From Histomonas meleagridis (lineage: Eukaryota > Parabasalia > Tritrichomonadida > Dientamoebidae), in contig WSYJ01000149.1 in assembly GCA_020186115.1 (NCBI GenBank), forward strand, positions 1-64,000: 64,000 nucleotides of DNA, read 5' to 3'. A model generated the notes under the pieces. It had not been told where the DNA came from, searched no databases, and saw only the letters and a program-made list of their open reading frames with translations. Positions 5,903-31,350 of the stretch are shown here, in pieces. A program made the position numbers and the translations under genes. Position 1 is the stretch's first letter. Each line of letters starts with the position of its first letter.

Positions 5903-6030
5903 AGTCCTTAAAAAAAACCGACGAGATTTGGTTTATGAATAAAACAAGAGTCAAAGTGAAGTAGAATAAGGCGGTCGCGTCTATAATTAAAGATAATATC
6001 ACTAATAACATACGATAATGAATAAACAAG
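1501..6030 (+). mobile_element. Non-LTR retrotransposon (R2/NeSL type), 5'-truncated left copy
   Basis: It carries, in order, C2H2 zinc fingers, a long Asn/Gln-rich linker, reverse transcriptase with YADD at 4047-4058, a CCHC knuckle at 5161-5217 and a restriction-like endonuclease with PDVWW near 5368. That order is the layout of the R2/NeSL/CRE group, which uses one endonuclease C-terminal to the RT and inserts at specific sites. The 3' end has no poly(A) and stops exactly at a 22-nt copy of the tRNA-Lys 3' end (6031-6052). The 5' half (about 2.2 kb compared with the right copy) is missing because the palindrome edge cuts through it. Confidence 0.8.
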
Positions 6031-6052
6031 TCCCGTCGAAGGTGAATTTTTT
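6031..6052 (+). repeat. tRNA-Lys 3'-end target-site copy at the retrotransposon 3' junction
   Basis: The 22 bases beginning TCCCGTCGAAGGTGAA and running into T6 equal the last 14 nt of the tRNA-Lys gene at 21992-22064 plus its terminator. They start immediately after the retrotransposon 3' end. The mirrored copy is at 15758-15779. I infer that this is the downstream half of a target-site duplication produced when the element inserted into a tRNA-Lys gene. Confidence 0.8.
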
Positions 6053-6171
6053 CTTTTTTAATAGAATTAAATTATATTCGAACAAAAGAAAAAAAAAATT
6101 ATTCGACTTTTGCTCAAATATATTTCAAATAATATTTTGATCCAACTATCAAAGTTTCCCAAATTAATTTT

Positions 6172-6935
6172 TTATTTTTTAACGTTACTATTAATTCCAA
6201 GAAACAAATTGACAATTTCTTTATTTTTCATTTGAGTTGCTAGTGAGGCTGCTGTGTGTAATAATCAAAATAATTTCCGAATATTATTTTAAGACATAAA
6301 ATTTTTATAATAAATATCAAATAAAACAAGCAAATATCATAAGCATTTATGGCAATTTCTTTTTGTTTAAGAAGTAATTTAACTATTTCTGTATGACCAT
6401 ATAAAGATGCATAGATAAGTGCTGTTTTAAATAGTTTATATGATTTCCAAATATTATTTTGATATCGTAAATTATTAGAATAAACAATATATATAACAAA
6501 AAAAATTTCTTTAGCATTAATATCAATTCCCTTTTTGTTCAAGAAGTAATTTAACTATTTCTGTATAACCTTTTTCAGATGCTTTAATAAGTGCTGTTTC
6601 AAATAATATTTTGATATATCCAAAAAAAATTTTAATAAACGATAAATAAAGGAAATAAATATTGTTGGCATTAATATCAATTCCTTCTTGTTCAAGAAGT
6701 AATTTAACTATTTCTGTATGACCTTTTTGAGATGCTATAAATAGTGCTGTTTTAAATAATTTATATAATTTCCAAATATTATTTTGAAATATCAAATTAT
6801 TAAAATAAATTTTAAATAAAACAAATAAATATTTTTTAGCATTAATATCAATTCCTTTAAGTTCAATAAGTATTTTAAATATATTTTTTGTTATTAATTT
6901 TAGTTGCAGTTATAAGTGCTGTTTCAAACATTTTA
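6172..6935 (-). pseudogene. Ankyrin modules separated by AT-rich spacers (left arm)
   Basis: On the minus strand, four to five ankyrin-like units appear (TALFIASQKGHTEIVKLLLE and variants, each ending near DINAK). A similar AT-rich spacer of about 60-85 nt separates successive units, and its reading frame is only partly open. Orientation and position suggest these units continue the DUF3447 gene that starts at 8195. It is the mirror copy of 14880-15640. No GT...AG boundary fits the spacers, so splicing is only a possibility. Confidence 0.6.
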
Positions 6936-7019
6936 AATAATTTTCAAAATGTAATTAGAAATTGTAAAATCTTAAAATAAATATAAAATAAAACAAATAA
7001 AACCTAAATAAAAAAATTA

Positions 7020-8195
7020 AACATCTTTAACATTAATATCAATTACTTTTTGTTCAACAATGAATTTAACAAGTTCAAAATTTTCAGATTTTATTGATGA
7101 AAACAATACATATCCAGAAAGAAGATCATTTTGAAGGAAACATTGCATAAGATATAAGTTCCCAAATTGAGCTATATAATCAATAAGACTTTTTGTTTAT
7201 TTTCATTTCTTTTATAAGCAAATACGACAAAATATCATAATTAGAATATTTTAAACATTTTTCAAAGTCAATTTGTTCAATTTTCTTTTCATAAATATAT
7301 TTAAAGATATCATTCTTATGGAATTTAATTGCAGCTTCACATGCATTATCAAATGATGAATTATTTTGTTCACACAAATGAATGATTTCAATATTTCCAC
7401 CTGCAACTGCATATTTACCTGTATTTTCTACATTTGCATCATTCATAAGTAAAAATTTAAAACATTTAATTGATCCAAAAAATGCTGCATAATCAATTAA
7501 TGAAACATCTTCTTGATTAATAAATGAACATCTTTCATAAAGTGATGGTTCAATTGTTTGATTAAAATCAAAATCATTTTTTGATGATATTTCTTGAAGT
7601 TTTTCGATTTCATCATTTCGAATTATTTTCGCAATTTCATTCGGATTAAATCCTTCTTCAACTAACTTCTTATCTAGTCCAAAATCTTCTTTTGAAAATA
7701 TTTCAGATGTAGAAGAAAAATATTTAGAAAATTTATAAATAATTTCATCTTCACTTACATATATGCGATATTTTGGATTGATTTTTTTGAGAACATTTTT
7801 GTCATTTAAATCAACTAAATTTTTTTCAATCATTTTTAGAATTAAATAATATGATTCTTGTGAATTAATTTTTACTTAAATAATTACAAAAATATTTTAA
7901 TAATTTTTGGTTTATCTTTGTTTAGAGCTTCTAAGTAGTTCAGATAAATATAATTGTTTTCTTTTTTGGAATAAAATATAGAATAAATTAGGTTACAAAG
8001 AAGGAGTTTATGTGAATATGGAAAACTTATATCAAATAATTTCTTTGTTTGTTCAACAGAGATTTTAAAATTGTCTTGTGTTAAATTATATATTATTTGT
8101 TTAAGTTTATGGACTAACTTATTAAAGTCAGCGAACTTATTTTCACTTTGGGTATTATTACCATTTAATTGTTCTTGATTGTCGGGTTGTGACAT
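7020..8195 (-). pseudogene. DUF3447/ankyrin-type protein, left copy, frameshifted
   Basis: This is the same gene as 13621-14796 in reverse orientation. It starts at MSQPDNQ (8195) and is then broken into 7884-8195 and 7180-7833, plus a C-terminal remainder in another frame. The breaks are one-base homopolymer differences from the right copy, near 7193 (T5 versus four) and near 7875-7890 (T5 and A5 versus four). Trichomonads have very large families of such DUF3447 plus ankyrin proteins of unknown function. The breaks could be genuine decay or uncorrected sequencing errors. Confidence 0.7.
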
Positions 8196-8647
8196 TTTAA
8201 ATGTGAAAAGACAAGCTTGTTCATGAGAACGATCAATTTCAATTTAATTATTATATCGAATTATTTAATTTTTTCAAAAGAAGCTTCTAAAGAAGTTATA
8301 AATTACTTATACTTATTTACATTTTAATAAATTTCCACCTTCATATCTTTATAATTAACCTCTAAGAACCATAAAATAAAATCACTAAAGTTTTGCTTGT
8401 AGTGAAAACTATTGTTTGAATATTCATTGTCTTTTTTGTTCAACGTTAGATAATTATTTAATATGATTTGTAGATACTTTATGTAAAAAGTATTTTAAAA
8501 AATGATAATATAATTTTCAAGCCTAATTTTACACAAAAAATCTAAAGAAAATCATTAAATTTCTTAATATATAAAATCAAAAAATAATAAAAATTCAGAT
8601 AAATCATTTATTCATTTCATCATTCAGCATTAATTTTATTCTCTTTT
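8196..8647. other. AT-rich intergenic segment in the left arm
   Basis: About 450 bases lie between the DUF3447 start and the SAPS-like gene end. I see no ORF, RNA gene or repeat apart from its mirror at 13196-13620. It probably holds the DUF3447 promoter, with TTTTCACATTTAAA just before the start codon. Confidence 0.5.
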
Positions 8648-9817
8648 TCAAATCCAATAGGGATTTCTCCTCCATATTTTTGATTTAATAATTGAATTTT
8701 TATTTTGAATTTCTTCTGGAATTTCTTGAAGAATTTCTTTGTTATATTTTATAATAATTTGAAGGAGTTGAAGTTGTTGAGGATTAATTTCTTGTTTTCG
8801 AATATTTTCTTGAAGAATTTCGATAGCTTTTGTTTTATTGATAATAGTTAATAATTCTTCTTTAGGAATTATTTGAAGTTGTTGAATTAATTGATGAATA
8901 ATTGACCAATGAATATTTGTTTGTAAAATCATTTGAAGACATTCTTCATTTGAATGTTTAATATTTAATGATGAAAAAGATTTTATAGCTGAATTTAAAT
9001 CTTTATTTAAATAAAATTCATTATCATATTTATGAATAATTTCTTGAATTTTCGTTGATTTTTCTTGAAGATTTTTAATTAATCGATAAATTTCTATTTT
9101 TGATATTTTATCTTTAAGAATTTTCGCTGATTCAATTAATTCTAAAAGAACATTTTCCGTAGTAAAACTTTCTTTAATTAATTCTTCTTCAAATCCTTTT
9201 AAAAATATTTGACGAAGTGCATAAATTGATATAAAAATATTAATATTAGAATTATTTAGATTACTTTTAATATGTCGTGAAATAATTGGAACAAATCGTT
9301 TAGGTAAATATTTAGTAAACTCTGTTTCTAATATAATAATAAATTCAACGACTGAGATTAAATTTAAATGATTGGTTAAATCTTCTATAATATTTGGAAA
9401 GAATTCTAAATATTTACCTGATGATTGTCGAAGAAGATGAACAAAAATTTTTTGAAAATGTCCAACACATATCGAATCCCATTCATCATCGTTCCCTAAA
9501 AAATTAGAACAAAATGTTTTAAATGATTTCGAATTAAGTAAAATTGTAGAATACGAACTTCCACCACAAACTAAAACTTCTGTAGATAAACGTGATAAAT
9601 GTTCAAATTTCGTCTCTTTTTCATATTTAAGTGTCATAGACCATTCACATAATTCAGTAATGATATCTTCACGTGAAAAATATGATGTTAACTCTTGATG
9701 ACCTGTTCGAAATTCTTGAAGCATAGTACCTTCTTCAAGAATTTCTCGAAGTCGTGTGTCTTCTTTTTGTAAAAGTTCCATAAGTGGATCTGTTGCAATT
9801 TCCATATCCCAAAACAT
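8648..9817 (-). CDS. SAPS-like (PP6 regulatory subunit) protein, left copy
   Basis: The N-terminus MFWDM...LMELLQKEDTRLREILEE followed by MLQEF matches the characteristic SAPS start (MFW, a Lys-Glu-Asp block, then L-x-E-L-L and LQE). An all-helical region with repeated leucines follows. In animals and fungi SAPS proteins hold PP6/Sit4-type phosphatases. At about 390 aa it is short for the family. The first 380 residues are open, but an extra A and a C-to-A change near 8695 shift the C-terminus, so it ends 20 residues into another frame. The right copy has the intended end (GFEKENKINAE). Family assignment rests on the N-terminal motif only. Confidence 0.5.
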   Translation of the reverse strand: MFWDMEIATDPLMELLQKEDTRLREILEEGTMLQEFRTGHQELTSYFSREDIITELCEWSMTLKYEKETKFEHLSRLSTEVLVCGGSSYSTILLNSKSFKTFCSNFLGNDDEWDSICVGHFQKIFVHLLRQSSGKYLEFFPNIIEDLTNHLNLISVVEFIIILETEFTKYLPKRFVPIISRHIKSNLNNSNINIFISIYALRQIFLKGFEEELIKESFTTENVLLELIESAKILKDKISKIEIYRLIKNLQEKSTKIQEIIHKYDNEFYLNKDLNSAIKSFSSLNIKHSNEECLQMILQTNIHWSIIHQLIQQLQIIPKEELLTIINKTKAIEILQENIRKQEINPQQLQLLQIIIKYNKEILQEIPEEIQNKNSIIKSKIWRRNPYWI

Positions 9818-10028
9818 TTTTTCCTTTTTTATTGTGGCGGTGGACGTTAATTTTCGGTTTATATTAAAGAAATTTCATTAAAAAGTTTCATATAAAGAAA
9901 AGATTATTAAGAAAATTTAAACATTAAAAAAAAAACAACTATTTATCTTGTATTATAAAACAAATAACTATGATTCCAAGAAAAAAAATATTAAAAATTA
10001 ACATTTAAAATTATGTTTAAAAAAATGT

Positions 10029-10377
10029 TTATTGACTAATTAAATGATGCGTAATTCCAAGCCTATGTTCATCATTAAGTTCTTTAAGAATAAATGTCAT
10101 AACACTTGGTTGACTATTAATTAAGGTGTTAACAGTAATAATAATTTGTGTTTTATCAGAAAATGGTTGTGATTCATATTTAAGTGGTTGAGTTGTTTGA
10201 ATGTTTCCAAGTGTTTTAAGTTTCGCACATTGACGGTGATGTTTGAATTAACTCTGAATTAAATTCTAAAATACTATCATCAGTATAAAATGGTTGAACT
10301 AAATTAACATCATCTTTAATTAATTTGAAATAATGTTCAACAAATTTTGTTGATATTTCTTGAAAGAAATCTTCCAT
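10029..10377 (-). pseudogene. NTF2-like protein, left copy, 2-base deletion
   Basis: Reverse-orientation copy of the gene at 11436-11786. Around 10225 it lacks two bases that the right copy has (CGTCAATGTGCG here, CGTCAATTATTGCG there), which shifts the frame after about 49 codons. Only 62 bases of upstream sequence are shared with the right copy before the palindrome arm ends, so this copy may also lack part of its promoter. The right copy therefore looks like the original. Confidence 0.75.
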
Positions 10378-10612
10378 CTTTTGACCAAGATGAAGACGTT
10401 TATTATAAACTTTTCAATTATATCTTGTCAGTTTTATTGAGTTTTTTTTCATGAAAAAATTCAAAATTAAAATCAGAATTATATTAAAAATCACACACAG
10501 AAATGATATATTTTAAAGCAAAATTTTTTTTAAATTTTAATTTACAAAAATAAAAATTTATTATTTAATTACATTTCATACATTTATTCTATATTTTATC
10601 TATTCACTCGCT

Positions 10613-11347
10613 TCATTTGTGTTTTGTATTTTTTGAATTTAAAGAAACAAGTTCATTCATCATTTCTTGAATTTCTTCTTGCAACATGTCGCATTTCTGT
10701 GTTAATTTTCCATGAAGAACTTTTCCTTTGTCAATTTGTTGGTTAATTTCAATTATTTGTTGCTCCATGTGTCGAATGCTTTCAAGTTGTTGCTCCATTT
10801 CCTCATATCCTTCTTCTTCTTCATTTCCAGAATTTTTTTCTGATTCAAGTTCAGCTGCAGTTCGCTTTAGTTGAAGATTAAGTGTTTTGATTTCTTTCTT
10901 GAGACGTCTGTTTGCCGATTCAACTTCATAAACAGATGATTGAAGAGATGGAACTTGCTTAGATTGCTTGTTTTCATCCCTATATTTTGCAATGAGTGAA
11001 GCTTCCTCCCTTTCGTGTATTTCGTATTTTTGGATGAGCTTAGAAAGTACTGTATTTTCAAGAGATGACCACATTTCGCGTTTTTGTTTTCCAAGTGGGA
11101 TAATTTCTAATTCTGTATAAAGCACATCTTTAATTATTTCTTGATATATTTGTTGCGTTTCTTGCATTAATGTTTCGTTTTTGGTGATTTCTTCTTCTAA
11201 TAATTTTCTTGCAATCGATTCGTCGAGAAATGTGCATAATCGAGGTTCAACGAATGGGACTTCTTGTACTGAGTTGTCTATAGTATCGGCAATTTCTGAT
11301 ATAGATTTTTTATATCTATTTGAAGCAAGAAGATCACCTAATTCCAT
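10613..11347 (-). CDS. Coiled-coil protein in the palindrome spacer
   Basis: A 244-aa acidic protein. Residues about 50-110 are helical and residues about 120-240 have heptad-like Leu/Ile spacing (SANRRLKKEIKTLNLQLKR, then EQQLESIRHMEQQIIEINQQ), indicating a long coiled coil interrupted by an acidic Gly-Asn-Glu loop. I recognise no specific family; kinetochore, IFT or tethering coiled coils are all possible. It is the only gene between the arms, so it is single-copy here. It is divergent from the intact NTF2-like gene across only 88 bases. Confidence 0.6.
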   Translation of the reverse strand: MELGDLLASNRYKKSISEIADTIDNSVQEVPFVEPRLCTFLDESIARKLLEEEITKNETLMQETQQIYQEIIKDVLYTELEIIPLGKQKREMWSSLENTVLSKLIQKYEIHEREEASLIAKYRDENKQSKQVPSLQSSVYEVESANRRLKKEIKTLNLQLKRTAAELESEKNSGNEEEEGYEEMEQQLESIRHMEQQIIEINQQIDKGKVLHGKLTQKCDMLQEEIQEMMNELVSLNSKNTKHK

Positions 11348-11435
11348 ACCAATACGTTAAAATACAAAAAACGCAATAAAACTGACAAGATATAATTGAA
11401 AAGTTTATAATAAACGTCTTCATCTTGGTCAAAAG
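11348..11435. promoter_or_regulatory. Compact bidirectional promoter (coiled-coil gene / NTF2 gene)
   Basis: 88 bases separate two divergent start codons. The segment contains ACGTTAAAA, resembling the AACG-type Myb-box motif described in trichomonad promoters. The palindrome boundary (11374) falls inside it, so the inverted left NTF2 copy received only the NTF2-proximal part. Motif assignment is inference. Confidence 0.4.
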
Positions 11436-11786
11436 ATGGAAGATTTCTTTCAAGAAATATCAACAAAATTTGTTGAACATTATTTCAAATTAATTAAAGA
11501 TGATGTTAATTTAGTTCAACCATTTTATACTGATGATAGTATTTTAGAATTTAATTCAGAGTTAATTCAAACATCACCGTCAATTATTGCGAAACTTAAA
11601 ACACTTGGAAACATTCAAACAACTCAACCACTTAAATATGAATCACAACCATTTTCTGATAAAACACAAATTATTATTACTGTTAACACCTTAATTAATA
11701 GTCAACCAAGTGTTATGACATTTATTCTTAAAGAACTTAATGATGAACATAGGCTTGGAATTACGCATCATTTAATTAGTCAATAA
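11436..11786 (+). CDS. NTF2-like nuclear transport factor
   Basis: At 116 aa it is close to the usual NTF2 length of about 125. It starts FVEHYFKLIKDDVNLVQPFY then TDDSILEF, matching the NTF2 pattern F-V-x-x-Y-Y-x-x-(F/L)-D with LAPFYTDxSxL. A strand region follows (KTQIIITVNTLINSQPS) and the end matches the NTF2 sheet. NTF2 carries Ran-GDP into the nucleus, but the fold is also used by mRNA exporters and stress-granule proteins, so the exact role is open. The start codon is the first ATG after the short shared promoter. Confidence 0.7.
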   Translation: MEDFFQEISTKFVEHYFKLIKDDVNLVQPFYTDDSILEFNSELIQTSPSIIAKLKTLGNIQTTQPLKYESQPFSDKTQIIITVNTLINSQPSVMTFILKELNDEHRLGITHHLISQ

Positions 11787-11996
11787 ACATTTTTTTAAAC
11801 ATAATTTTAAATGTTAATTTTAATATTTTTTTTCTTGGAATCATAGTTATTTGTTTTATAATACAAGATAAATAGTTGTTTTTTTTTTAATGTTTAAATT
11901 TTCTTAATAATCTTTTCTTTATATGAAACTTTTTAATGAAATTTCTTTAATATAAACCGAAAATTAACGTCCACCGCCACAATAAAAAAGGAAAAA

Positions 11997-13195
11997 ATGT
12001 TTTGGGATATGGAAATTGCAACAGATCCACTTATGGAACTTTTACAAAAAGAAGACACACGACTTCGAGAAATTCTTGAAGAAGGTACTATGCTTCAAGA
12101 ATTTCGAACAGGTCATCAAGAGTTAACATCATATTTTTCACGTGAAGATATCATTACTGAATTATGTGAATGGTCTATGACACTTAAATATGAAAAAGAG
12201 ACGAAATTTGAACATTTATCACGTTTATCTACAGAAGTTTTAGTTTGTGGTGGAAGTTCGTATTCTACAATTTTACTTAATTCGAAATCATTTAAAACAT
12301 TTTGTTCTAATTTTTTAGGGAACGATGATGAATGGGATTCGATATGTGTTGGACATTTTCAAAAAATTTTTGTTCATCTTCTTCGACAATCATCAGGTAA
12401 ATATTTAGAATTCTTTCCAAATATTATAGAAGATTTAACCAATCATTTAAATTTAATCTCAGTCGTTGAATTTATTATTATATTAGAAACAGAGTTTACT
12501 AAATATTTACCTAAACGATTTGTTCCAATTATTTCACGACATATTAAAAGTAATCTAAATAATTCTAATATTAATATTTTTTATATCAATTTATGCACTT
12601 CGTCAAATATTTTTTAAAAGGATTTGAAGAAGAATTAATTAAAGAAAGTTTTACTACGGAAAATGTTCTTTTAGAATTAATTGAATCAGCGAAAATTCTT
12701 AAAGATAAAATATCAAAAATAGAAATTTATCGATTAATTAAAAATCTTCAAGAAAAATCAACGAAAATTCAAGAAATTATTCATAAATATGATAATGAAT
12801 TTTATTTAAATAAAGATTTAAATTCAGCTATAAAATCTTTTTCATCATTAAATATTAAACATTCAAATGAAGAATGTCTTCAAATGATTTTACAAACAAA
12901 TATTCATTGGTCAATTATTCATCAATTAATTCAACAACTTCAAATAATTCCTAAAGAAGAATTATTAACTATTATCAATAAAACAAAAGCTATCGAAATT
13001 CTTCAAGAAAATATTCGAAAACAAGAAATTAATCCTCAACAACTTCAACTCCTTCAAATTATTATAAAATATAACAAAGAAATTCTTCAAGAAATTCCAG
13101 AAGAAATTCAACATAAAATTCAATTATTAAATCAAAAATATGGAGGAGAAATCCCTATTGGATTTGAAAAAGAGAATAAAATTAATGCTGAATGA
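11997..13195 (+). pseudogene. SAPS-like (PP6 regulatory subunit) protein, right copy
   Basis: Same gene as 8648-9817. It is open from 11997 to about 12575, then out of frame, then open again to 13195. Two runs near 12580 and 12611 have T6 where the left arm has T5, so two one-base insertions only about 30 bases apart cause the break. With both runs at T5 length the frame would give 398 aa with a normal C-terminus. Both arms are damaged at different places, always in homopolymers or close to them, which makes read error a serious alternative to pseudogenisation. Confidence 0.6.
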
Positions 13196-13620
13196 TGAAA
13201 TGAATAAATGATTTATCTGAATTTTTATTATTTTTTGATTTTATATATTAAGAAATTTAATGATTTTCTTTAGATTTTTTGTGTAAAATTAGGCTTGAAA
13301 ATTATATTATCATTTTTTAAAATACTTTTTACATAAAGTATCTACAAATCATATTAAATAATTATCTAACGTTGAACAAAAAAGACAATGAATATTCAAA
13401 CAATAGTTTTCACTACAAGCAAAACTTTAGTGATTTTATTTTATGGTTCTTAGAGGTTAATTATAAAGATATGAAGGTGGAAATTTATTAAAATGTAAAT
13501 AAGTATAAGTAATTTATAACTTCTTTAGAAGCTTCTTTTGAAAAAATTAAATAATTCGATATAATAATTAAATTGAAATTGATCGTTCTCATGAACAAGC
13601 TTGTCTTTTCACATTTAAAA
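13196..13620. other. AT-rich intergenic segment in the right arm
   Basis: Mirror of 8196-8640. Nothing recognisable is seen apart from TCACATTTAAAA immediately before the DUF3447 start, an initiator-like position. Confidence 0.45.
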
Positions 13621-14796
13621 ATGTCACAACCCGACAATCAAGAACAATTAAATGGTAATAATACCCAAAGTGAAAATAAGTTCGCTGACTTTAATAAGTT
13701 AGTCCATAAACTTAAACAAATAATATATAATTTAACACAAGACAATTTTAAAATCTCTGTTGAACAAACAAAGAAATTATTTGATATAAGTTTTCCATAT
13801 TCACATAAACTCCTTCTTTGTAACCTAATTTATTCTATATTTTATTCCAAAAAAGAAAACAATTATATTTATCTGAACTACTTAGAAGCTCTAAACAAAG
13901 ATAAACCAAAAATTATTAAAATATTTTGTAATTATTTAAGTAAAATTAATTCACAAGAATCATATTATTTAATTCTAAAAATGATTGAAAAAAATTTAGT
14001 TGATTTAAATGACAAAAATGTTCTCAAAAAAATCAATCCAAAATATCGCATATATGTAAGTGAAGATGAAATTATTTATAAATTTTCTAAATATTTTTCT
14101 TCTACATCTGAAATATTTTCAAAAGAAGATTTTGGACTAGATAAGAAGTTAGTTGAAGAAGGATTTAATCCGAATGAAATTGCGAAAATAATTCGAAATG
14201 ATGAAATCGAAAAACTTCAAGAAATATCATCAAAAAATGATTTTGATTTTAATCAAACAATTGAACCATCACTTTATGAAAGATGTTCATTTATTAATCA
14301 AGAAGATGTTTCATTAATTGATTATGCAGCATTTTTTGGATCAATTAAATGTTTTAAATTTTTACTTATGAATGATGCAAATGTAGAAAATACAGGTAAA
14401 TATGCAGTTGCAGGTGGAAATATTGAAATCATTCATTTGTGTGAACAAAATAATTCATCATTTGATAATGCATGTGAAGCTGCAATTAAATTCCATAAGA
14501 ATGATATCTTTAAATATATTTATGAAAAGAAAATTGAACAAATTGACTTTGAAAAATGTTTAAAATATTCTAATTATGATATTTTGTCGTATTTGCTTAT
14601 AAAAGAAATGAAAATAAACAAAAGTCTTATTGATTATATAGCTCAATTTGGGAACTTATATCTTATGCAATGTTTCCTTCAAAATGATCTTCTTTCTGGA
14701 TATGTATTGTTTTCATCAATAAAATCTGAAAATTTTGAACTTGTTAAATTCATTGTTGAACAAAAAGTAATTGATATTAATGTTAAAGATGTTTAA
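13621..14796 (+). CDS. DUF3447/ankyrin-type protein, intact right copy
   Basis: 391 aa. The start at MSQPDNQ is preferred over the upstream ATG at 13591 because TCACATTT lies directly before it. The N-terminal 200 residues are helical with no named motif. Residues about 230-390 contain divergent ankyrin-like repeats typical of DUF3447 (SLIDYAAFFGSIKCFKFLLM, then GNIEIIHLCEQN and SENFELVKFIVEQ). It ends at DINVKDV, exactly where each downstream ankyrin module also ends before its spacer. The ORF may therefore be only the first exon or module of a longer ankyrin protein that continues at 14880. Trichomonads carry hundreds of such proteins; no function is established. Confidence 0.7.
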   Translation: MSQPDNQEQLNGNNTQSENKFADFNKLVHKLKQIIYNLTQDNFKISVEQTKKLFDISFPYSHKLLLCNLIYSIFYSKKENNYIYLNYLEALNKDKPKIIKIFCNYLSKINSQESYYLILKMIEKNLVDLNDKNVLKKINPKYRIYVSEDEIIYKFSKYFSSTSEIFSKEDFGLDKKLVEEGFNPNEIAKIIRNDEIEKLQEISSKNDFDFNQTIEPSLYERCSFINQEDVSLIDYAAFFGSIKCFKFLLMNDANVENTGKYAVAGGNIEIIHLCEQNNSSFDNACEAAIKFHKNDIFKYIYEKKIEQIDFEKCLKYSNYDILSYLLIKEMKINKSLIDYIAQFGNLYLMQCFLQNDLLSGYVLFSSIKSENFELVKFIVEQKVIDINVKDV

Positions 14797-14879
14797 TTTT
14801 TTTATTTAGGTTTTATTTGTTTTATTTTATATTTATTTTAAGATTTTACAATTTCTAATTACATTTTGAAAATTATTTA

Positions 14880-15640
14880 AAATGTTTGAAACAGCACTTA
14901 TAACTGCAACTAAAATTAATAACAAAAATATTGTTAAAATACTTCTTGAGCTTAAAGGAATTGATATTAATGCTAAAAATATTTATTTGTTTTATTTAAA
15001 ATTTATTTTAATAATTTGATATTTCAAAATAATATTTGGAAATTATATAAATTATTTAAAACAGCACTATTTATAGCATCTCAAAAAGGTCATACAGAAA
15101 TAGTTAAATTACTTCTTGAACAAGAAGGAATTGATATTAATGCCAACAATATTTATTTCCTTTATTTATCGTTTATTAAAATTTTTTTTGGATATATCAA
15201 AATATTATTTGAAACAGCACTTATTAAAGCATCTGAAAAAGGTTATACAGAAATAGTTAAATTACTTCTTGAACAAAAAGGAATTGATATTAATGCTAAA
15301 GAAATTTTTTTGTTATATATATTGTTTATTCTAATAATTTACGATATCAAAATAATATTTGGAAATCATATAAACTATTTAAAACAGCACTTATCTATGC
15401 ATCTTTATATGGTCATACAGAAATAGTTAAATTACTTCTTAAACAAAAAGAAATTGCCATAAATGCTTATGATATTTGCTTGTTTTATTTGATATTTATT
15501 ATAAAAATTTTATGTCTTAAAAATAATATTCGGAAATTATTTTGATTATTACACACAGCAGCCTCACTAGCAACTCAAATGAAAAATAAAGAAATTGTCA
15601 ATTTGTTTCTTGGAATTAATAGTAACGTTAAAAAATAAAA
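14880..15640 (+). pseudogene. Ankyrin modules separated by AT-rich spacers (right arm)
   Basis: Five ankyrin-like units follow the DUF3447 gene on the same strand: ETALITATKINNKNIVKILL, TALFIASQKGHTEIVKLLLE, TALIKASEKGYTEIVKLLLE, a fourth starting TALIYASLYGHTEIV in a shifted frame, and a last degenerate one. Each ends near GIDINAK and is followed by an AT-rich spacer that can be read through in some units but not others. The modules are much better conserved than a random relic would be. Either the spacers are removed from RNA, or the array was copied with its spacers and is decaying. Confidence 0.6.
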
Positions 15641-15757
15641 AATTAATTTGGGAAACTTTGATAGTTGGATCAAAATATTATTTGAAATATATTTGAGCAA
15701 AAGTCGAATAATTTTTTTTTTCTTTTGTTCGAATATAATTTAATTCTATTAAAAAAG

Positions 15758-15779
15758 AAAAAATTCACCTTCGACGGGA
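15758..15779 (-). repeat. tRNA-Lys 3'-end target-site copy, right element
   Basis: The reverse complement reads TCCCGTCGAAGGTGAA plus T6, identical to nt 60-73 of the tRNA-Lys gene at 21992-22064 and its terminator. Together with the complete tRNA gene at the other end of the element it brackets a 6.2-kb insertion as a direct duplication of at least 22 nt. Confidence 0.85.
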
Positions 15780-15975
15780 CTTGTTTATTCATTATCGTAT
15801 GTTATTAGTGATATTATCTTTAATTATAGACGCGACCGCCTTATTCTACTTCACTTTGACTCTTGTTTTATTCATAAACCAAATCTCGTCGGTTTTTTTT
15901 AAGGACTTTATTGATCGTCATGTTGGGGATGCCCTAACCCATCCTCAACATTTTCGTCAACAAGTTCTTCTTGAT

Positions 15976-18236
15976 TTACACCAACATCTTCTTGTAAATC
16001 GATTTTCTTTCATTACTATTTGGGTCGTCAGTTAATTGACCATATGGTGACGTTACTTCAATAATTTTAAGATTTTGATAATTACTGGAAAACCACCATA
16101 CATCCGGTTTAAGATTTCTGGAGTTTCCTTCTAATCTTATATTTCTTTTACTGATTGGCCTATCATAATTAAATATAATATTATTATTTGGTTTAATTTC
16201 TTTTAATACTTCTTTAATGATTGCATTATGTCGAATAGTATATTTATTTCTTAAATTAATACAACCATTTAATCTGTGCATGAGGGAATCATTGTAATTG
16301 TTATTACATTTATGACAAATTCCATCGCCGATTCCATTTTTATACAAAATTTCGCCTGTAGGCAAATTATTTGTTCTTGAAACTACGGCGAAATGTATAA
16401 TAGAGTCAGCAGTTGGAGCTTTATAATTCCCCAATGAAGAAATTGGATAACGGAGAATTTTTGTAATGTGTTAAATGTGTGACCTTTGATAGGTTTTGCT
16501 CTTAATTTTTCTCCATGTCTGTTTTTAATAATATTATTTAATTCATTTAATATATTTGTTTCATCAACTATTATTTTATTAATATCATTTGAATTATTGT
16601 CCCATATTTTAGCAGTTTCTTTATTAAAGTTCATCTTCATACCAATTTTTAATTTGGCTAAAGATTTAATTGTCCTTGAGAATAAACAATTTGTTCTGCT
16701 TTGACTAATTTGTGTAATTATATTATTCTCATCAACTGGAATATTTAAATAGGGTGAATTGTAATCTTTTTCGATCTTTCTATAATCTATTTCATTAATA
16801 AAAGATTGTCTGAATAATTTCCTAAAATTTGGATCAAAAGATTTTATAATATTTAGGAAGTTCTTAATTTGTAAAGTTTTAGCTCTTTCCCATAATTTTG
16901 GTAACCCTAAACCTCCATCACTCCATTTAGTATAAAATAATTCTTTAGGTAAACTATTAGTTTTACAATCCTTCATAATTAATTTCTTAATCATTGTATC
17001 AATATTATTTAATTCTTTCTCTGAACAATAACCATTTAATAATTCGAAATCTATTTCAGGAAGAATCATTCTTTTTATCACATCTATCTTTTGATTAAAT
17101 TTTAATGAGGATTTCATAATTTTAATGATTTCATTTTTAATTTTTATATAATCTAATATTAGTATGATCAAAACTACCTTTTTATTTAATTACTGCAGAT
17201 GAACCTAAATATTCTAAAGCTTCTAATAAAGGTAAATTAGGAATATTTTCATTCTGAATTTGTAATTTATAATTTAATGTAACTCTTCGATTATTTTCTT
17301 TAATATAACTTAAAGTTTTACATTTTTTTTTTTTTTTTGTCATATAATTCTTCTTACAGCACTTTTCTACTGTCTTTAACATGTTTTGCATACCTTCAGG
17401 GGGTTTGAGAAATCAAGACTATATCATCAGCATAAGCTTGAATATTAAAAATATATTACCTCATTATCATTTGTATTAATTGGAACACCATCTAGTTTAT
17501 GTTTAATCTGGATTTTCTTTAATAAAGGTTCTAAGCATAAATTAAATAATAAAGGTGATAAAGGACATCCTTGTCTTACACCTCTATTTATTTTAATTTG
17601 TTCAGTTCTTTTATTTCCAACTTTGATAGTAGTATAAGAATTATCATATAAGTCTTTAATTGCTTCTATAAATTTCGTTGGGAATCCTCTTTTCTTTAAA
17701 CTCCATAAAATAGCTTTATGAGGAACAGACCCAAAAGCATTAGTAAAATCTAGTGTAGTAATAATGATTGAAGAATTATTTCTTTTAGCTTCAGAAATTA
17801 ATTCATTTATAGTTGCTATATGTTCTGAAATACCATTAATACCAGCTTTAAATCCTTTTTGTACATGATTAATGAAGTTACAATTTTGATTTATAATTTG
17901 GATAATCTTTGATATCTGACACATTACAATTCTATACAATGTATTTGATATTGATATAGGTCTCCAAGATTTAATTTCTTTTGGATCACCTTTTTTATAT
18001 AATAATATTGTTTTCGAATTCTTTAAAGTTTGTGGAAATTTTCCGAATTTAATTATTTGTTCATTAATCATTTTAATAATTTTAGTAGTTGATTTAATAT
18101 CTATTTTCCATATAGGATTTCCAATTCCATCTGGACCATTAGCAGCCATATTTGATCTTGATCTTATTGAATTTCTAATTAAATCCTTATCTAATAGATT
18201 ATTTAATAAAAAATCTCTATTTTCTTCGTCAATCAT
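15976..18236 (-). pseudogene. RT and endonuclease region of the right retrotransposon
   Basis: 17445-18236 is open across the RT fingers and palm (SWRPIS, LDFTNAFGSVPH, RGVRQGCPLSPLLF). YADD follows around 17433 but in another frame because of T5 versus T4 in the left arm. 16383-17171 covers the thumb region, and 15976-16434 the CCHC knuckle and PDVWW endonuclease. The endonuclease end is cut by a 331-bp deletion (left-arm equivalent 5479-5809), which replaces its C-terminus with SIYKKMLV. A 15-base T run at about 17325-17338 replaces normal coding sequence seen in the left arm. The copy is inactive as written. Confidence 0.75.
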
Positions 18237-18269
18237 TTCTTTTAAGTCCTATAAACTATTTTCTTTTGG

Positions 18270-21200
18270 TTATTCAAAATTCGCAATTTTCTCAAATTGT
18301 ATTTTATAATAATTCCCAACTTCTTCTATATTTAAATCACATTCTGGTATAGGATCATTTAATATATACCATCTGATAGCTCTAACTGGATCTTCTCGAT
18401 ACATGTTTTGAGTTATATTTTTATATTTCTTTGATATAATATTCATATTATCTTGTTGAATATTTTCTAATGTAGCTGAAATATAATTTAATCTATTTTC
18501 TCTATGTTCTGGATTATCATTAATAATGTTTCGAATATATTCAATGTTATTTCCTCCAATTATTTTATTTAATATATCATTATTAGTATTCTTTAAAATA
18601 TTTACTATTTCTATTTCAATACTTGAAATAGTATTTAATATAGTTTGTGTAGGTGTTTTATCTTTTAATTCTATAATCCTTTTAATATAACTAGTAATTT
18701 CTGATAAATTTCTAATTATATTGTTTTGTCTTCTAATTGTAAGTTTTTGTCTAAAGTTTTTAGTAAGTTTAGGTAAATGAATCTCATTTTGTTCTTCTAT
18801 TTCTACCCTATTTAACCATTTTCTACATTTTATTAATAAATTATTTCTTTCTTCTAAAATAATTTGTTGTTCTTCTTGAGTCATTCCTATATTTTCTACT
18901 TGTTGTTGTTCCTGATTATTATTTTGTTGTTCTTCTTGATTATTATTTAGTTGTTCTTCTCGTTGTTGTTCTAGATTATTATTTTGTTGTACTTCTTGAT
19001 TATTTGGTTGTTCTTGTTGAATGACTCTTTGATCTTGATTTTGTATAATAATATTATTATTTCTATTAATTTCTCCATTATTTTGTTGATTAATAATAAT
19101 ATTTCTATCATTGAAGTGATTATTATTGTTATCATCTGTTAATTGTTCTTGAACTTTAATTTCATTTTCAATCTCATCAATTTGTTCTTGTAACAGGATT
19201 CTAAATATTGTGGATTTAATTTTAATCTTTTGTTTTGTAATAATTGTACCTTTTATTCTTGAATCACTATGCATTGAAAATGCATGTAATTTTATATTTC
19301 CTTCATTAGCTGTAATTGTCTTTTTTACAATAACCACATTATAAACCATTTCTTTTTTTCATTAATTCTTTAATATTTGGTGTTCTATTAACTTGATTTA
19401 TCCAATATTTAATAGTCGCCCAAATCCATCCTATTTCTGATTTTTTATCAACTATATATTTGTGTTTGGTTTTCATATGTGAAGAAAATGAACCCTGATT
19501 CATAATAGTAAAATAATCACAATTTGGACAGAAGCAAAAATAAAGATTCTTATGATAACTTTGATGTTGGTCTTGTAAATTAACTTGTTCCCAATAATTA
19601 TCTTTTAAACTTAAAAAGTTTAGAAATTCTAACATTGTACAACCTGGAAATGTTTTATTATGTATTTGTTTCTCATGATATTTCAAATGAGGTACACATG
19701 TGTAAATGCTTCTCCATCTCCTTGTGTACATACAAAAGGTCCTACACCTGGCCAACTTTTTTCGAATGCTATAATATTTAAAATTGGTATTTTAAATCTA
19801 TTATTATTGCACATGAATAAGTTCTCGTTTAAATCTTTATTCTTCCATTTATTAATTACTAATTTAATTTCTTCTTTAGTATTCGCATTTCTAATATCAT
19901 TTAATAAATTTTCTGGTGTTAAATCTTCTTCATCATTAATATTATTATTATTTCCATTATTGTGATTATTATTATTATTATTATTTAAATTGATGTTATT
20001 GATTTGATTTTGATTTTCTTGTGGAATATTATTGTTATTGAATCCTAAGGTTGTAATATTTGAGTTTAGTTGATTTTGATTATCATTGTTATTTTGATTT
20101 TGAGTTTCGTTATTATTTAGATTTATATTGATATTAATATTGGGTAAATTATAGTTTGGTGTTGGAAAATTGATATCTTTTTCTACAAATTTAATTTTTG
20201 GTATTTCTATAATTTGTTCATTAACTTTAATCTGTGGAATATTAAATGGTATACAATTCCTTCATTGTAATACGGAATAGGAATATTAATATTTTGTACT
20301 TGATTTTGATAGTTTGGTATTGGAATATTAATGTTTTGTATTTGATTTTGATAATTTGGAATATTAACTAAAAAGTTTTCTTGGTTGTATTGAGGTATTG
20401 GTATTGTATAATTTTGTAAATTTTGTTGGTAATTCGGTATGTCTATTTTGAAATCTTCTTGTTGATAATTAGGTATTGGAATTATAAAATTTTCTGTTTG
20501 TTTCTCATACTCTGGTATTTTAATAGGTACCAATTTTTTTTTTTTTTTAGGAATTGGTATTAAATAATTTTCTTTATTGATTTTAAAATTAGGAATTGTA
20601 ATTAACTTGTCTTCTTTATTGTAATAAGGTATAACGACATTAATTTCTTCATTATTGATTTTGAAGTCTGGAATATCAATAATTTTTTCTTTAACTTTTA
20701 CTACTGGTAAATCACAATTTATGTTTTTCTGTGTAATAGAGAAATTAGGAACATTAATTGGATATTGTTTAACTTGTGTAACATGAGAAATGTTTTTATT
20801 TAGTCTAATTTTGTTATTTAAGAATTGTAATGTGTCAGGTCTGATTGATAATGTTTTATTTATAATTCGAAAAGTATCTGGTGGTAAAATTAAACCTCGA
20901 TAAGAACATATATTCGGGATCTCAATATTGATGTTATTTTGTTCGATGATTAATATCCAATATGGTAAATCAATTTCAGTAAAATCTTTGTTTTCATAAT
21001 GTTCATTAATTAAATAAATTTCTCTCCAAGCATCTGGATTAATATTATTGAATATTCCAAAAATCAACTTGTGTTTTTAATAAATTTAATGCTGTCGGTA
21101 ATTTTTCCGTAAGTTTTTGTCCATGAAAAGATTAACGTCCAAAATAACCCGACGGTTTGTAAAGAATTTATAATTATTTCTGAACTGTGGTCTTGATTTA

Positions 21201-21972
21201 TATGGTTGATTAATTCAAAATTGTTAGAAATAATTTTATAACAATTTGGAAACGGACAGAATCTTTTATAATTTTTTGATTTTATAATATATTTGTTTTT
21301 AGTCAATAATCTTTGTATGATTCTTTCGTGAAAGAGTAATTCTTGATTAGGGTCAATATCATGTTCTTCTGATAAATGTTTTGATAGTATTTGAAAATCT
21401 TTTGTGAAAAAATTACATTCTGGAACTAATGAACAACAAAATGGTTCGAGTAATGGAATTTCACGAAACTCATTTAATTTGAATAATTGAGAAATTGGGA
21501 AATTTAAAAAATTATGAATTAATAATAAATTTTGCTGTAACCAAATGTTAGGCTTTGGTATTTGTTTCTTGATTGCTTTGATAATAGTTCTTTTAATTTC
21601 TTCTTTGTTGGGAAAATCTTTATTAATTATATAATTTTGTAAAAAGTTTTGTAATGTTCGATCTGTAATAATTTCTTTGTTATCTCTATAATAATTTTCA
21701 TTAATATCCCATATATTAATCTTATCTTGTAGTACATGGTCGAACTTTAAAATGTAAATATCTTCATAATTATTCGTAATTAAAGATTCGTTTCTTGTTG
21801 ATCGTAATTCAGATGTATGACCCTCTATTCCTGTAAAATTGTTCGTCTGAAGTTTTGAATTTCCAAATAATCTATCTGATGAAAATTCGAATTTTGAGAA
21901 AAGGGTATCATTCGATTCCTCTCCCTGTAACGGAGCTAAAGGCGAATTCTCAGCAAAAATAGAACTCTCCAT
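18270..21972 (-). pseudogene. N-terminal half of the retrotransposon protein (fingers, IP repeats, linker)
   Basis: The start MESSIFAENSPLAPL is at 21972. Residues about 175-260 hold two C2H2 fingers (CSLVPEC...HLSEEH and CPFPNC...HINQDH). At about 21065 a poly-A run shifts the frame, and the next segment (to 20207) is built of Ile-Pro-rich repeats. A further shift leads to an Asn-rich tract (about 19960-20150), then another finger (CPNC...HMKTKH, about 19470-19530), an in-frame TAA shared with the left copy, and an Asn/Gln-rich linker (18270-19349). Three or more fingers before the RT fit R2-type elements, where they read the target DNA. Sequence beyond 19761 exists only in this copy. Confidence 0.7.
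20260..20800 (-). repeat. Protein-level tandem repeat (about 16-17 aa, Ile-Pro motif) in the retrotransposon
   Basis: About ten units of the form NI(P/N)IPNYQNQ...Q appear in a row (for example INIPIPNYQNQVQ, then FKIDIPNYQQNLQNY and TIPIPQYNQENF). They alternate IPNY and IPIP halves. The final units are almost identical at DNA level and the first ones are diverged, suggesting ongoing expansion. I know of no such domain in R2-type proteins. Confidence 0.7.
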
Positions 21973-21981
21973 CAAAAAAAC

Positions 21982-21989
21982 AAAAAAAA
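21982..21989 (-). terminator. Pol III T8 terminator of tRNA-Lys
   Basis: Eight consecutive T on the minus strand begin two nt past the discriminator base, followed by G and another T run. This is a standard RNA polymerase III terminator. The retrotransposon ATG lies 10 nt farther on. Confidence 0.8.
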
Positions 21990-21991
21990 TT

Positions 21992-22064
21992 CACCTTCGA
22001 CGGGATTCGAACCCGCAACCCCAGGATTAAAAGTCCTATGCTCTAACCGTTGAGCTACGGAGGT
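21992..22064 (-). tRNA. tRNA-Lys (anticodon UUU)
   Basis: A 73-nt cloverleaf folds on the minus strand. The acceptor ACCTCCG pairs with CGAAGGT (one C-A mismatch at the fifth pair). The D arm is GCTC/GAGC, the anticodon stem TAGGA/TCCTG with loop CTTTTAA, and the T arm GCGGG/CCCGT with loop TTCGAAT. Anticodon bases are 22029-22031 (UUU, lysine AAA codon). The internal promoter boxes are visible (TAGCTCAACGG and GGTTCGAATCC). There is no intron. It abuts the 5' end of the retrotransposon and is intact. Confidence 0.93.
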
Positions 22065-24183: not shown

Positions 24184-25391
24184 AAGTATTCTTCAATAAG
24201 TTTCCCGAACGATACACTTTTTTAGGCCAATAACCCTCGCACTTCTATTAAAAAGTTCTATTGTTTGGGAAATTTATTGAAGAATTCAAAATTTATTTGT
24301 TTTTTTTAGTAGTTGGTATGATTTTCATTATTGCGAATAACTTGTTGCAGTCTGTCTTGCATAGAGTTTGCAAGATTTTGAAGCATTTCAGGGGAGATGC
24401 TTTTCCAGACTTCGAATATCGCAGCACAGAGCTCACAAATGGTTTTCGGTCTAAGTTCATAAACTTTTCTTTTCATAATCGCCCATAGATTCTCAATTGG
24501 ATTGAGATCTGGGCTCATTGTAGGCCAGTCTTCTAGAATGTTAACGTACATTCTTAAGTAATCTATAGTTTCTCTGCAAGTATGAGCGGTTGCTCCATCT
24601 TGCATTAAAATCCAACCCATGATTCCATAGACTTCATTCATATGCGGTATCAAACCGCTTCCATTTATCAGTTCGTCTACATAGGAAACATGGTCAATGG
24701 TCCCTCTTTCAATAATGATGAGGTTTGTTTTGACTTGGGAAGACATCCCACCAAACACCAAAACCTTATCTGGGAATTTTTTTTCACTAACTATAACTTC
24801 AGGACATTTCTCGCCTTTTTCTCGATAAAGAGGTCGATGATCCTCGTTGAGCCAAAAGTAGCTTTCATCTGTGAACAGCACTTTTGTCCAGTCGGTTCCA
24901 AGCTGCAAATGCTTTTGTGCAAACAATAAACGGTCGCTTTTCTGTTTCTCAGTAAGTGCAAATGAAATCAATGGGTAGCTGAATCGATATTCTAGAATTT
25001 CTCTCGCTATCATGATGGTAGATTCGCTTATAATGTTGTTGAATTTTTCAGATTGGTTAGCAAAGACTGATAACGAAAGATTTGATAATCGTCGATTTTC
25101 TTTCGTCATATCATCAACAAATTCCAGGAGTTCTGTCGTAATTTTTGTCGGGGCTCCAAGTTTTGTTTTTTGAAAGCAAATGTCTTCCCCATCTTTAATC
25201 ATTTTTCGAACCAATTTTACAGTCTTGTGGTCATGACCAGTCATCCGTTGGATGTCCATATCTGAATACCCTAGGTATATCCATTTTGCTATTTCCTGCC
25301 TTCTTTTTATTGTTGTTTTTGTCGCCAGCATGTTCCTTGTCTGCGGAAGTTATTTGATAGCTTTACGTGGGAAACTTATTGAAGAATACTT
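24184..25391 (-). mobile_element. Complete Tc1-type transposon with TIRs and TA duplication
   Basis: Perfect terminal inverted repeats of about 23 bp (AAGTATTCTTCAATAAGTTT plus CCC at 24184-24206 and its complement at 25369-25391) are each flanked by TA (24182-24183 and 25392-25393). This is the target duplication of the Tc1/mariner superfamily. The 1.2-kb element holds one intact transposase gene on the minus strand. With perfect ends and an open frame it could be young or still active. Confidence 0.92.
24306..25331 (-). CDS. Tc1-family DD34E transposase
   Basis: 341 aa, a normal length for the family. Residues about 8-45 form a helix-turn-helix (RQEIAKWIYLGYSDMDIQRM), with a second one near 60-110. 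The catalytic core carries D155 (LFTDESYFW), D245 (MQDGATAH) and E280 (SPDLNPIENLW); 34 residues separate the last two, giving DD34E, the Tc1 signature (mariner proper has DD34D). The transposase cuts at the TIRs and inserts into TA. There is no frameshift or stop, which is notable beside the heavily broken elements nearby. Confidence 0.92.
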   Translation of the reverse strand: MLATKTTIKRRQEIAKWIYLGYSDMDIQRMTGHDHKTVKLVRKMIKDGEDICFQKTKLGAPTKITTELLEFVDDMTKENRRLSNLSLSVFANQSEKFNNIISESTIMIAREILEYRFSYPLISFALTEKQKSDRLLFAQKHLQLGTDWTKVLFTDESYFWLNEDHRPLYREKGEKCPEVIVSEKKFPDKVLVFGGMSSQVKTNLIIIERGTIDHVSYVDELINGSGLIPHMNEVYGIMGWILMQDGATAHTCRETIDYLRMYVNILEDWPTMSPDLNPIENLWAIMKRKVYELRPKTICELCAAIFEVWKSISPEMLQNLANSMQDRLQQVIRNNENHTNY

Positions 25392-30525: not shown

Positions 30526-30736
30526 GCAAGGAAAAATATTTATAACTGTATTAAATATCATTTTAAGGTTTACTTTTTTGATATTTTCATTAATTAATAA
30601 CCTTGTGTCTCATCATATTATCAAAAAAAAATTGAGAATTATACTATATATATGAATCAGATCAACAAATAAAATTTTATGATTCACCGATGGGATTTCA
30701 TTCATAAATTATTTATTCTTTACACTCATAACATAA

Positions 30737-31306
30737 AACATTTACAAATTATTTATTATTTACATTAAATATTTACAAATTATTTATTATTTACATTAAA
30801 CATTTACAAATTATTTATTATTTACATTAAACATTTACAAATTATTTATTATTTACATTAAACATTTACAAATTATTTATTATTTACATTAAACATTTAC
30901 AAATTATTTATTATTTACATTAAATATTTACAAATTATTTATTATTTACATTAAACATTTACAAATTATTTATTATTTACATTAAATATTTACAAATTAT
31001 TTATTATTTACATTAAACATTTACAAATTATTTATTATTTACATTAAATATTTACAAATTATTTATTATTTACATTAAATATTTACAAATTATTTATTAT
31101 TTACATTAAATATTTACAAATTATTTATTATTTACATTAAATATTTACAAATTATTTATTATTTACATTAAATATTTACAAATTATTTATTATTTACATT
31201 AAATATTTACAAATTATTTATTATTTACATTAAATATTTACAAATTATTTATTATTTACATTAAATATTTACAAATTATTTATTATTTACATTAAATATT
31301 TACAAA
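30737..31306 (+). repeat. 31-bp minisatellite, about 18 copies
   Basis: Head-to-tail units of TTTACAAATTATTTATTATT followed by TACATTAAA(C/T)A, period 31. Copies are almost identical apart from one C/T position that switches between units. The array ends 44 bases before the stop codon of the gene at 31351-32535, so it lies in or next to that gene's 3' region. Confidence 0.95.
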
Positions 31307-31350
31307 TCATTAAACGCAATTCACAAAATGTTTTAATGTTTACTAATTAT

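Follow-up and report, generated by a model that had tools for sequence, protein, structure and literature searches.

tRNA gene-specific retrotransposons with a restriction-like endonuclease (RLE) are already known, one of them from a parabasalid. That element, NeSL-1_TV of Trichomonas vaginalis, is specific for tRNA-Pro (Kojima and Jurka, 2015; PMC4640811), and its place in the reverse transcriptase (RT) tree was left unresolved in the available text of that paper; among the passages available from PMC4640811, PMC8869645, PMC10045372, PMC5678591, PMC6875170, and PMC5006619, only those of PMC4640811 name a tRNA-specific element from a parabasalid. The same passages assign the planarian elements LIN15_SM (tRNA-Arg) and LIN25_SM (tRNA-Glu) to the R5/LIN lineage, and report an Ulp1-like protease for nematode NeSL and one Utopia element (PMC4640811). 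Dictyostelid TREs, which use an apurinic/apyrimidinic endonuclease (APE), are described as inserting ~50 bp upstream or 100 bp downstream of tRNA genes, and NLTR-A as sitting 2–6 bp upstream of a tRNA gene (PMC5006619, in part), while the Dada DNA transposons are listed as targeting tRNA genes including those for tRNA-Lys, -Asn, -Arg, and -Tyr (PMC8869645, in part). Here we analyzed 64,000 nucleotides (nt) of Histomonas meleagridis DNA (contig WSYJ01000149.1 of assembly GCA_020186115.1, positions 1–64,000; hereafter the window), which contain a non-long terminal repeat (non-LTR) element at a tRNA-Lys(UUU) gene, together with the relatives of this element in the genome. We conclude that these R2/NeSL-like elements probably insert at tRNA nt 59/60, with one tRNA target per clade, and that the interrupted tRNA is rebuilt, somewhat more likely than not by a tRNA end that the element carries. 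The original prediction for this locus, made from the letters of the window, treated sequence-specific elements on multicopy RNA genes as established and named none on the tRNA-Lys of a parabasalid; NeSL-1_TV is a published parabasalid precedent for tRNA specificity in general (Kojima and Jurka, 2015; PMC4640811, as far as its available text goes).

The window element lies between an intact tRNA-Lys(UUU) gene, the single tRNA detected by ARAGORN in the window, and a 22-nt repeat of the end of that gene (TCCCGTCGAAGGTGAATTTTTT), which consists of tRNA nt 60–73 followed by AA and T6 (Table 1). Both this arrangement and the integrity of the upstream tRNA after insertion (ARAGORN; RF00005) had been predicted and are upheld. 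The 14 nt of tRNA (nt 60–73) are the portion common to the different families of elements; the further 8 nt agree in the window because both copies continue with AA and a T-run. The predicted assignment is supported in the sense of an R2/NeSL-like element: the RT is of the non-LTR type (PF00078, E 2.2e-25), and R2 proteins are its closest solved structures (9nl3, E 2.7e-37; 9dou, E 4e-37), with LINE-1 also among the best. The coding region of the window copy is spread over several frames in the assembly and is not intact as assembled. A CxxC..H..C motif together with (R/K)PD.W..L.I.EVT was recognized by eye in the consensus of the relatives and in one Lys copy (L033), the proteins that this reading covered; in the relatives, a CCHC finger and the endonuclease motif fall in the part that matches window positions 15976–17171. 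The elements thus carry a predicted RLE motif of the R2/NeSL-like kind. The six window pieces gave no match to the Ulp1-like protease family PF02902 (E up to 1, with the frames split) or to the APE families PF03372 and PF14529, and the pieces of the element gave no match to a transposase.

A search of the genome assembly (43.28 Mb, 121 contigs) with the 3' end of the Lys family returned five matches, representing four separate places after the left-arm duplicate of the window (see below) was dropped from the counts, and all four run into the 3' end of tRNA-Lys, with differing flanks behind the tRNA remnant. Judged by match coordinates, the same was found for the Ile family (6/6 places) and for one subtype of the Asn family (4/4), and in the Tyr family all 11 places extend through the cognate remnant (12 rows, two of which represent one place). 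Taken together, 25 of 25 separate 3'-end places in these four families (Lys 4, Ile 6, Asn 4, Tyr 11) enter the cognate tRNA 3' end, 21 of them outside the Lys family, so that the predicted continuation of the 3' ends into a tRNA held well beyond the family for which it was proposed. Because tRNA-end matches recur at all of these places, the junction is beyond chance. The tRNA-derived portion begins at nt 60, with nt 59 also fitting in several families, and the junction lies at nt 59/60 in all seven families recognized, which bears out the predicted cut near nt 60; the predicted duplication of the downstream part is one of two mechanisms that fit. The region of tRNA nt 60 is the T-loop and forms the B box of the RNA polymerase III (Pol III) promoter. 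Across 29 loci at which the 3' side was examined (28 RT loci and C36, the left-arm duplicate again dropped), a tRNA remnant is present at 24, which span the seven families and include one remnant with a 2-nt gap (C98).

The targeting of tRNA-Lys was predicted correctly for the window family, but not as the whole scope of the system, which takes in at least seven tRNAs. The targets observed are tRNA-Lys, -Ile, -Met, -Asn, -Tyr, -Cys, and -Arg(ACG); tRNA-Tyr(GUA) is intron-bearing, was left unnamed by ARAGORN, and was assigned by reading. An RT search of the genome with an E limit of 0.001 gave at least 97 matches, corresponding to 63 loci after merging, and 76 genes were found for the seven tRNA kinds after three 82% part-matches had been dropped (the Ile and Met counts being lower bounds, with 63 of 2480 candidates scored). 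At 36 of the 63 RT loci, a targeted tRNA is present in the 5 kb upstream, in the same orientation, against a chance expectation of 0.4%, the tRNA kinds for this comparison having been picked after the junctions had been seen. A further 16 loci are stacked behind a tRNA-anchored locus, at a spacing of ~6.0–7.6 kb, in stacks of two to four elements (four at C65); the order at C36 is tRNA, element, tRNA remnant, second element. Counted by gene, an element stands behind 6/11 tRNA-Lys(UUU) genes (the 11 being 26 rows less 14 tRNA-Lys(CUU) genes and one remnant), 7/16 tRNA-Ile (two decayed), 6/7 tRNA-Met, 11/12 tRNA-Asn (10 read, and C54 by its RT), 10/11 tRNA-Tyr, 3/8 tRNA-Cys (one judged by RT), and 3/11 tRNA-Arg (judged by RT). 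As to the tRNA genes themselves, all sixteen tRNA-Ile genes (L085–L091, L096, L112–L114, and L117–L121) have the anticodon GAU according to ARAGORN; nuclear tRNA-Ile of eukaryotes usually has AAU. The 11 tRNA-Tyr genes (L109 and L122–L131), including the empty one, have a short intron and, by reading, one acceptor-stem mismatch (T5 with C68).

The RT tree comprises 84 sequences: 30 from this genome, three from a metagenome, 50 of the 53 database proteins tried, and one R2. Labelled by remnant or upstream tRNA, each target group among the 30 genomic RTs forms one side of a branch with support of 99–100, in a tree made by a quick method with a single support value, in which near-copies inflate clustering. 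Seven target changes are needed on this tree, the least possible number. The single R2 row is placed elsewhere in the tree, and the Ulp1-bearing protein P0040 lies outside the clade that holds the elements described here, the tree being without a named NeSL reference. A Tritrichomonas foetus relative (P0002, 63% in the RT) was found and is not included in the tree; no protein named as T. vaginalis occurs among the RT matches listed, most of which are nameless. A scan of genome contigs recovered three relatives (L142–L144) in a bacterial metagenome-assembled genome (MAG) and two remote ones (L145 and L146), while another genome-contig scan, along with scans of viral contigs and plasmids, yielded no relatives. 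None of these five yielded a tRNA in a tRNA scan. The end of L142, AATAAACGAATTTACCACACGGGAGGAGATTTTTTTT, corresponds to the 3' end of tRNA-Asn plus a T-run, and in the tree L142 neighbors the genomic Asn clade (support 90, not starred); the contig of L143 stops at ATAAACA, exactly where the tRNA would begin, and that of L144 ends earlier. The contigs of L142–L144 and of P0024 are binned as Lachnospiraceae or Mycoplasmoidaceae, and probably represent eukaryotic contamination of bacterial MAGs. Given the tRNA-Asn end of L142, the targeting is no peculiarity of one assembly.

Uninserted sites, which the original prediction had pointed to as a comparison, do exist: five of the 11 tRNA-Lys(UUU) genes are empty, and for tRNA-Ile a filled and an empty gene with the same flanks occur on contig C61, the empty one within an inverted repeat. 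The 30 nt of upstream flank compared are identical in this pair, and behind the 3' remnant of the element the sequence goes on as it does downstream of the empty site; over 245 nt of this flank, two 1-nt homopolymer length differences are the only ones seen by eye (200/245 positions agree without gaps). What the insertion added is therefore the element together with a single copy of tRNA nt 60–73 and at most one T. A second candidate pair, on C15 (empty 193264, filled 207190), shows 99% similarity across 1505 bp that comprise the upstream flank and the tRNA; it was set aside as no more than half usable, since the sequence downstream of the empty locus is single in the genome and the 3' end of the filled one was not found.

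Filled copies within a family share a common sequence behind the tRNA (TGTTTTTTTCATTTTTT in Ile, AAATGGATCATTTTTTG in Met); the Tyr copies, the Asn types, and the filled Lys copies are likewise alike there, with small changes, and the double T-run of the window (T8 G T7) is common to filled tRNA-Lys loci with minor variation. Empty tRNA genes, in contrast, have individual T-runs, and what follows the remnant at filled sites is the T-run of the locus itself or the next element in a stack. As the filled copies are alike and the empty genes differ, the terminator-like T-run of the rebuilt tRNA belongs to the element, which overturns the original view that the upstream tRNA keeps its own T8 terminator. 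An ATG lies within 20 nt of the tRNA end at 36/41 filled loci versus 1/17 empty ones. Its A coincides with A73 of the tRNA in five of the seven filled tRNA-Ile genes; in Tyr it stands at +0 (2/10) or +1 (5/10) from nt 73, in Met at +3 (6/6), in Asn at +2 to +18 (10/10), in Lys at +14 to +20 (6/6; +20 in the window element), and in Cys at +18 to +20 from nt 72 (both of two read). Read as codons, the T-runs give MFFSFFKSS (Ile), MDFLFFSPEQ (Tyr), and MDHFLFFSPEN (Met). Twenty-two of the 36 ATG frames run for at least 60 codons or to the end of the fetched stretch; in the Ile copy C77 the frame stays open through three overlapping stretches and past the RT, whose match sits in an open frame of 1841 codons. 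If the ATG on the tRNA is the start codon, the mRNA must begin inside the tRNA gene, a start that we infer from the arrangement of tRNA and frame. Cleavage by tRNase Z was considered as a source of the mRNA 5' end and rejected, since it does not fit the Ile copies in which the A of the ATG is nt 73. A separate observation concerns P0028, a 1796-amino acid metagenome relative known from its protein alone, which starts MYFPFCFSAPTQQ and is phenylalanine-rich like the starts read from T-runs.

The proposed mechanism can be set out as follows. The element inserts in the T-loop, within the B box, at nt 59/60, and tRNA nt 60–73 would serve as a short leader of its mRNA; in several families the start codon would touch nt 73 and the T-runs would be read as phenylalanine codons. 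Nick-primed reverse transcription would copy the element RNA to its 5' end, so that the element supplies a tRNA 3' end and terminator that complete the 5' part of the target tRNA, and the original 3' end of the target would be displaced behind the element. The restored tRNA could be hit again, hence the stacks. Of these elements of the picture, the sequences themselves show the insertion point, the filled and empty pair with the same flanks, the match between clade and target, the whole tRNA, the element-type T-run, and the stacks.

For the part of this mechanism in which the element RNA itself bears nt 60–73, which we favor with modest confidence, the competing explanation is a target-site duplication alone. 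In that case the bottom strand would be nicked at nt 59/60 and the top strand cut ~14–15 nt further on, at the tRNA end, duplicating nt 60–73, and the element RNA would contain no tRNA sequence and begin at the T-run. We regard this as a serious minority possibility: it yields an identical end product, a plain duplication of 14–15 nt fits most junctions equally well, and the available text of PMC4640811 reports 20-bp duplications for Utopia in reptiles and none in arthropods. An mRNA beginning after nt 73 would nevertheless lose its start codon, if such it is, in 5/7 Ile and 2/10 Tyr genes, where the ATG overlaps the tRNA. The base at nt 59 is G, T, or A among filled tRNA-Asn genes, in which no other of 76 positions varies, and this points to the junction. 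In the C84 tRNA-Lys, the 5' half is that of one isodecoder (CCTCCG, accompanied by G59 in 3/3 empty genes) yet nt 59 is A, as though joined to nt 59 of the other. Simple duplication would also tolerate 5'-truncated copies, but each of the four Lys and six Ile 3' ends found has a tRNA ahead of it, either immediately or at the head of a stack, and none is a solitary truncated copy. Taken singly, each of these four points is weak, and several observations weigh against a carried tRNA end. Nucleotide 59 is a position that varies among tRNAs anyway, and at the 3' junction it tracks element lineage in Lys, so that there it seemingly belongs to the element and is uninformative on the target. Among the isodecoders seen, none differs within nt 60–73, the variant that would tell donor from target.

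The reading frame, which points to an mRNA start inside the tRNA, has exceptions. The frame closes earlier in 14 of 36 cases (Ile 2, Met 4, Asn 4, Tyr 2, Lys 1, Cys 1), and the ATG is missing from 3/10 Tyr and 2/7 Ile filled loci. Early closure may reflect decay, T-run length errors of a long-read-like assembly, or an ATG that is not the start; the T-run of L091 is one T short, and T-run lengths in the assembly may be off by one, while in L114 the T-run is changed by substitution, not length, and the frame stops after 11 codons. Nor is every locus anchored. Five of the 29 3' sides have no remnant (C57:692011, C92:14307, C15, C30, and C68:294089), even in a looser scan allowing three mismatches, and a whole tRNA-Cys gene lies downstream at C57. 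Three RT loci (C15, C68:4587, and C83) lie further from a targeted tRNA with no intervening RT locus, the three distances, in ascending order, being 5.7, 9.0, and 15.2 kb, and for eight of 63 (two on C102, three on C16, C61:81892, C76, and the left arm at C84:3245) the 25 kb upstream are free of targeted tRNAs. An alternative is that insertion is non-specific, as in elements with a mere preference for the surroundings of tRNA genes, and that selection acted afterwards; compact genomes are said to favor elements near tRNA genes (PMC5006619, in part). This alternative is highly improbable in view of the same tRNA junction in all seven families, the tie of each clade to one tRNA, and the 3'-end places of the Ile, Asn, and Tyr families. 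An assembly artefact, in which repeats joined tRNA ends, is more improbable still: fold-back-like inverted repeats are present in the assembly at C84, C15, and C61, but the junction is repeated, between differing flanks, across many contigs, and it recurs in the independent metagenome assembly that contains L142.

The features of the window are collected in Table 1.

Table 1. Features of the tRNA-Lys locus and its element in the 64,000-nt window.
Feature	Coordinates	Strand	Evidence
tRNA-Lys(UUU) gene, whole, 5' of the element	21992–22064	-	ARAGORN; RF00005, 67.7 bits
tRNA nt 60–73, 5'-side copy; portion rebuilt on insertion, same stretch repeated 3'	21992–22005	-	
Double T-run behind the tRNA (T8 G T7), Pol III terminator-like, element-type	21974–21989	-	
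Non-LTR element body, from rebuilt tRNA to tRNA remnant	15780–21991	-	
N-terminal coding piece; ATG at 21972–21970, reads MESSIFAENSP	21064–21972	-	Zinc-finger-like matches, weak
Coding piece	20207–21067	-	No known domain matched
Coding piece, interval from N-terminal region to RT	18270–19349	-	
RT core	17445–18236	-	PF00078, E 2.2e-25
Coding pieces downstream of RT, two open reading frames (ORFs), split frames	15976–17171	-	zf-RVT, weak, E 0.072
22-nt tRNA remnant, 3' side: tRNA-Lys nt 60–73 plus AATTTTTT, then flank of the locus itself	15758–15779	-	
Large inverted repeat, arms 1501–10447 and 11366–19762, most of the element in both	1501–19762	.	
Left-arm copy of the tRNA remnant, in the other inverted-repeat arm	6031–6052	+	

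The recurrence of the 3' junction in the left arm, which had been remarked on originally, is real, but its interpretation as a second, independent insertion was rejected: the left-arm junction belongs to the opposite arm of an inverted repeat, and the same insertion has therefore been duplicated. The arms are 98.8–99.5% identical in three long pieces, and the repeat may be a real palindrome or an assembly fold-back. Large inverted repeats also occur on C15 (~193264–207262) and on C61 (~869170–881757), each tied to a targeted tRNA, and in the C61 repeat an element occupies only one of the two arms; palindromes truly present in the genome, joined alleles, or fold-backs of the assembly may account for the three repeats. 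Elsewhere in the window, an ankyrin-repeat ORF (DUF3447/Ank; 13573–14796, plus strand) adjoins the insertion, and the flanks of several other insertions (L030, L076, and L083) look similar by eye. The window also contains a DDE_3 transposase ORF (PF13358, E 1.9e-13; 24306–25331, minus strand), a tandem array with a 31-nt unit (30576–31443), and a phosphodiesterase gene (40238–43876) whose best named relatives are from T. foetus (69%), Tritrichomonas musculus, and T. vaginalis; an H. meleagridis protein is also listed for it, at 44%.

Regarding the wider meaning of these data, we lean slightly toward a picture in which the host draws its tRNA supply largely from genes with 3' ends and terminators written by retrotransposons. 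The T-loop would be both landing site and mRNA start, nt 60–73 would be a leader, nt 73 could open the start codon, the terminator would be read as protein, and target switching would have left one clade per tRNA. The elements also present a way of living inside an essential gene, by restoring the end that it has lost. Should the mRNA indeed begin within the tRNA, a single stretch of DNA would act as the end of a tRNA, as a Pol III terminator, as a leader, and as coding sequence. Related elements that differ in tRNA target form a natural series in which target choice and target change of R2-like elements are directly testable. R2-like site-specific elements also attract interest as tools for inserting genes, and a tRNA gene that comes through an insertion whole would offer them a new kind of landing site.

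In comparison with described systems, the 3' ends that run into the 3' part of one tRNA display a trait of tRNA gene-specific RLE elements. NeSL-1_TV is alike in being a non-LTR element with an RLE and tRNA-gene specificity in a parabasalid host, whereas its target is tRNA-Pro, and the likeness is drawn from host and tRNA specificity rather than from junction details (PMC4640811, in part). According to the same passages, LIN15_SM and LIN25_SM resemble the present elements as RLE-type, tRNA-specific elements with targets diversified within one lineage, but R5/LIN is an animal lineage with mixed 28S and tRNA targets, whereas here seven tRNAs are targeted in one host genome, each by its own clade. 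Utopia and NeSL are alike in having a single protein in which N-terminal zinc fingers are combined with an RT, a zinc finger, and an RLE (PMC4640811, in part), and in having a fixed insertion point within a small RNA gene; they differ in targeting U2 small nuclear RNA and the spliced leader, and the window pieces are without an Ulp1 match. R2, which is site-specific and provides the best RT structure match, differs in its 28S rRNA target and its separate tree position. TRE5/TRE3 and NLTR-A are likewise tRNA-tied non-LTR elements, but sit outside the tRNA (PMC5006619, in part) rather than at a junction at nt 59/60, and Dada elements are DNA transposons with a transposase, whereas the elements described here code for an RT. 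In searches of open-licence literature, we saw no account of a single host whose element clades each have a tRNA target of their own, of a terminator supplied by the element, or of a start codon on the tRNA. Set beside these systems, what appears to be new in H. meleagridis is the radiation over multiple tRNA targets, the stacks, and the overlap between tRNA and ORF, from which we infer an mRNA start inside the tRNA.

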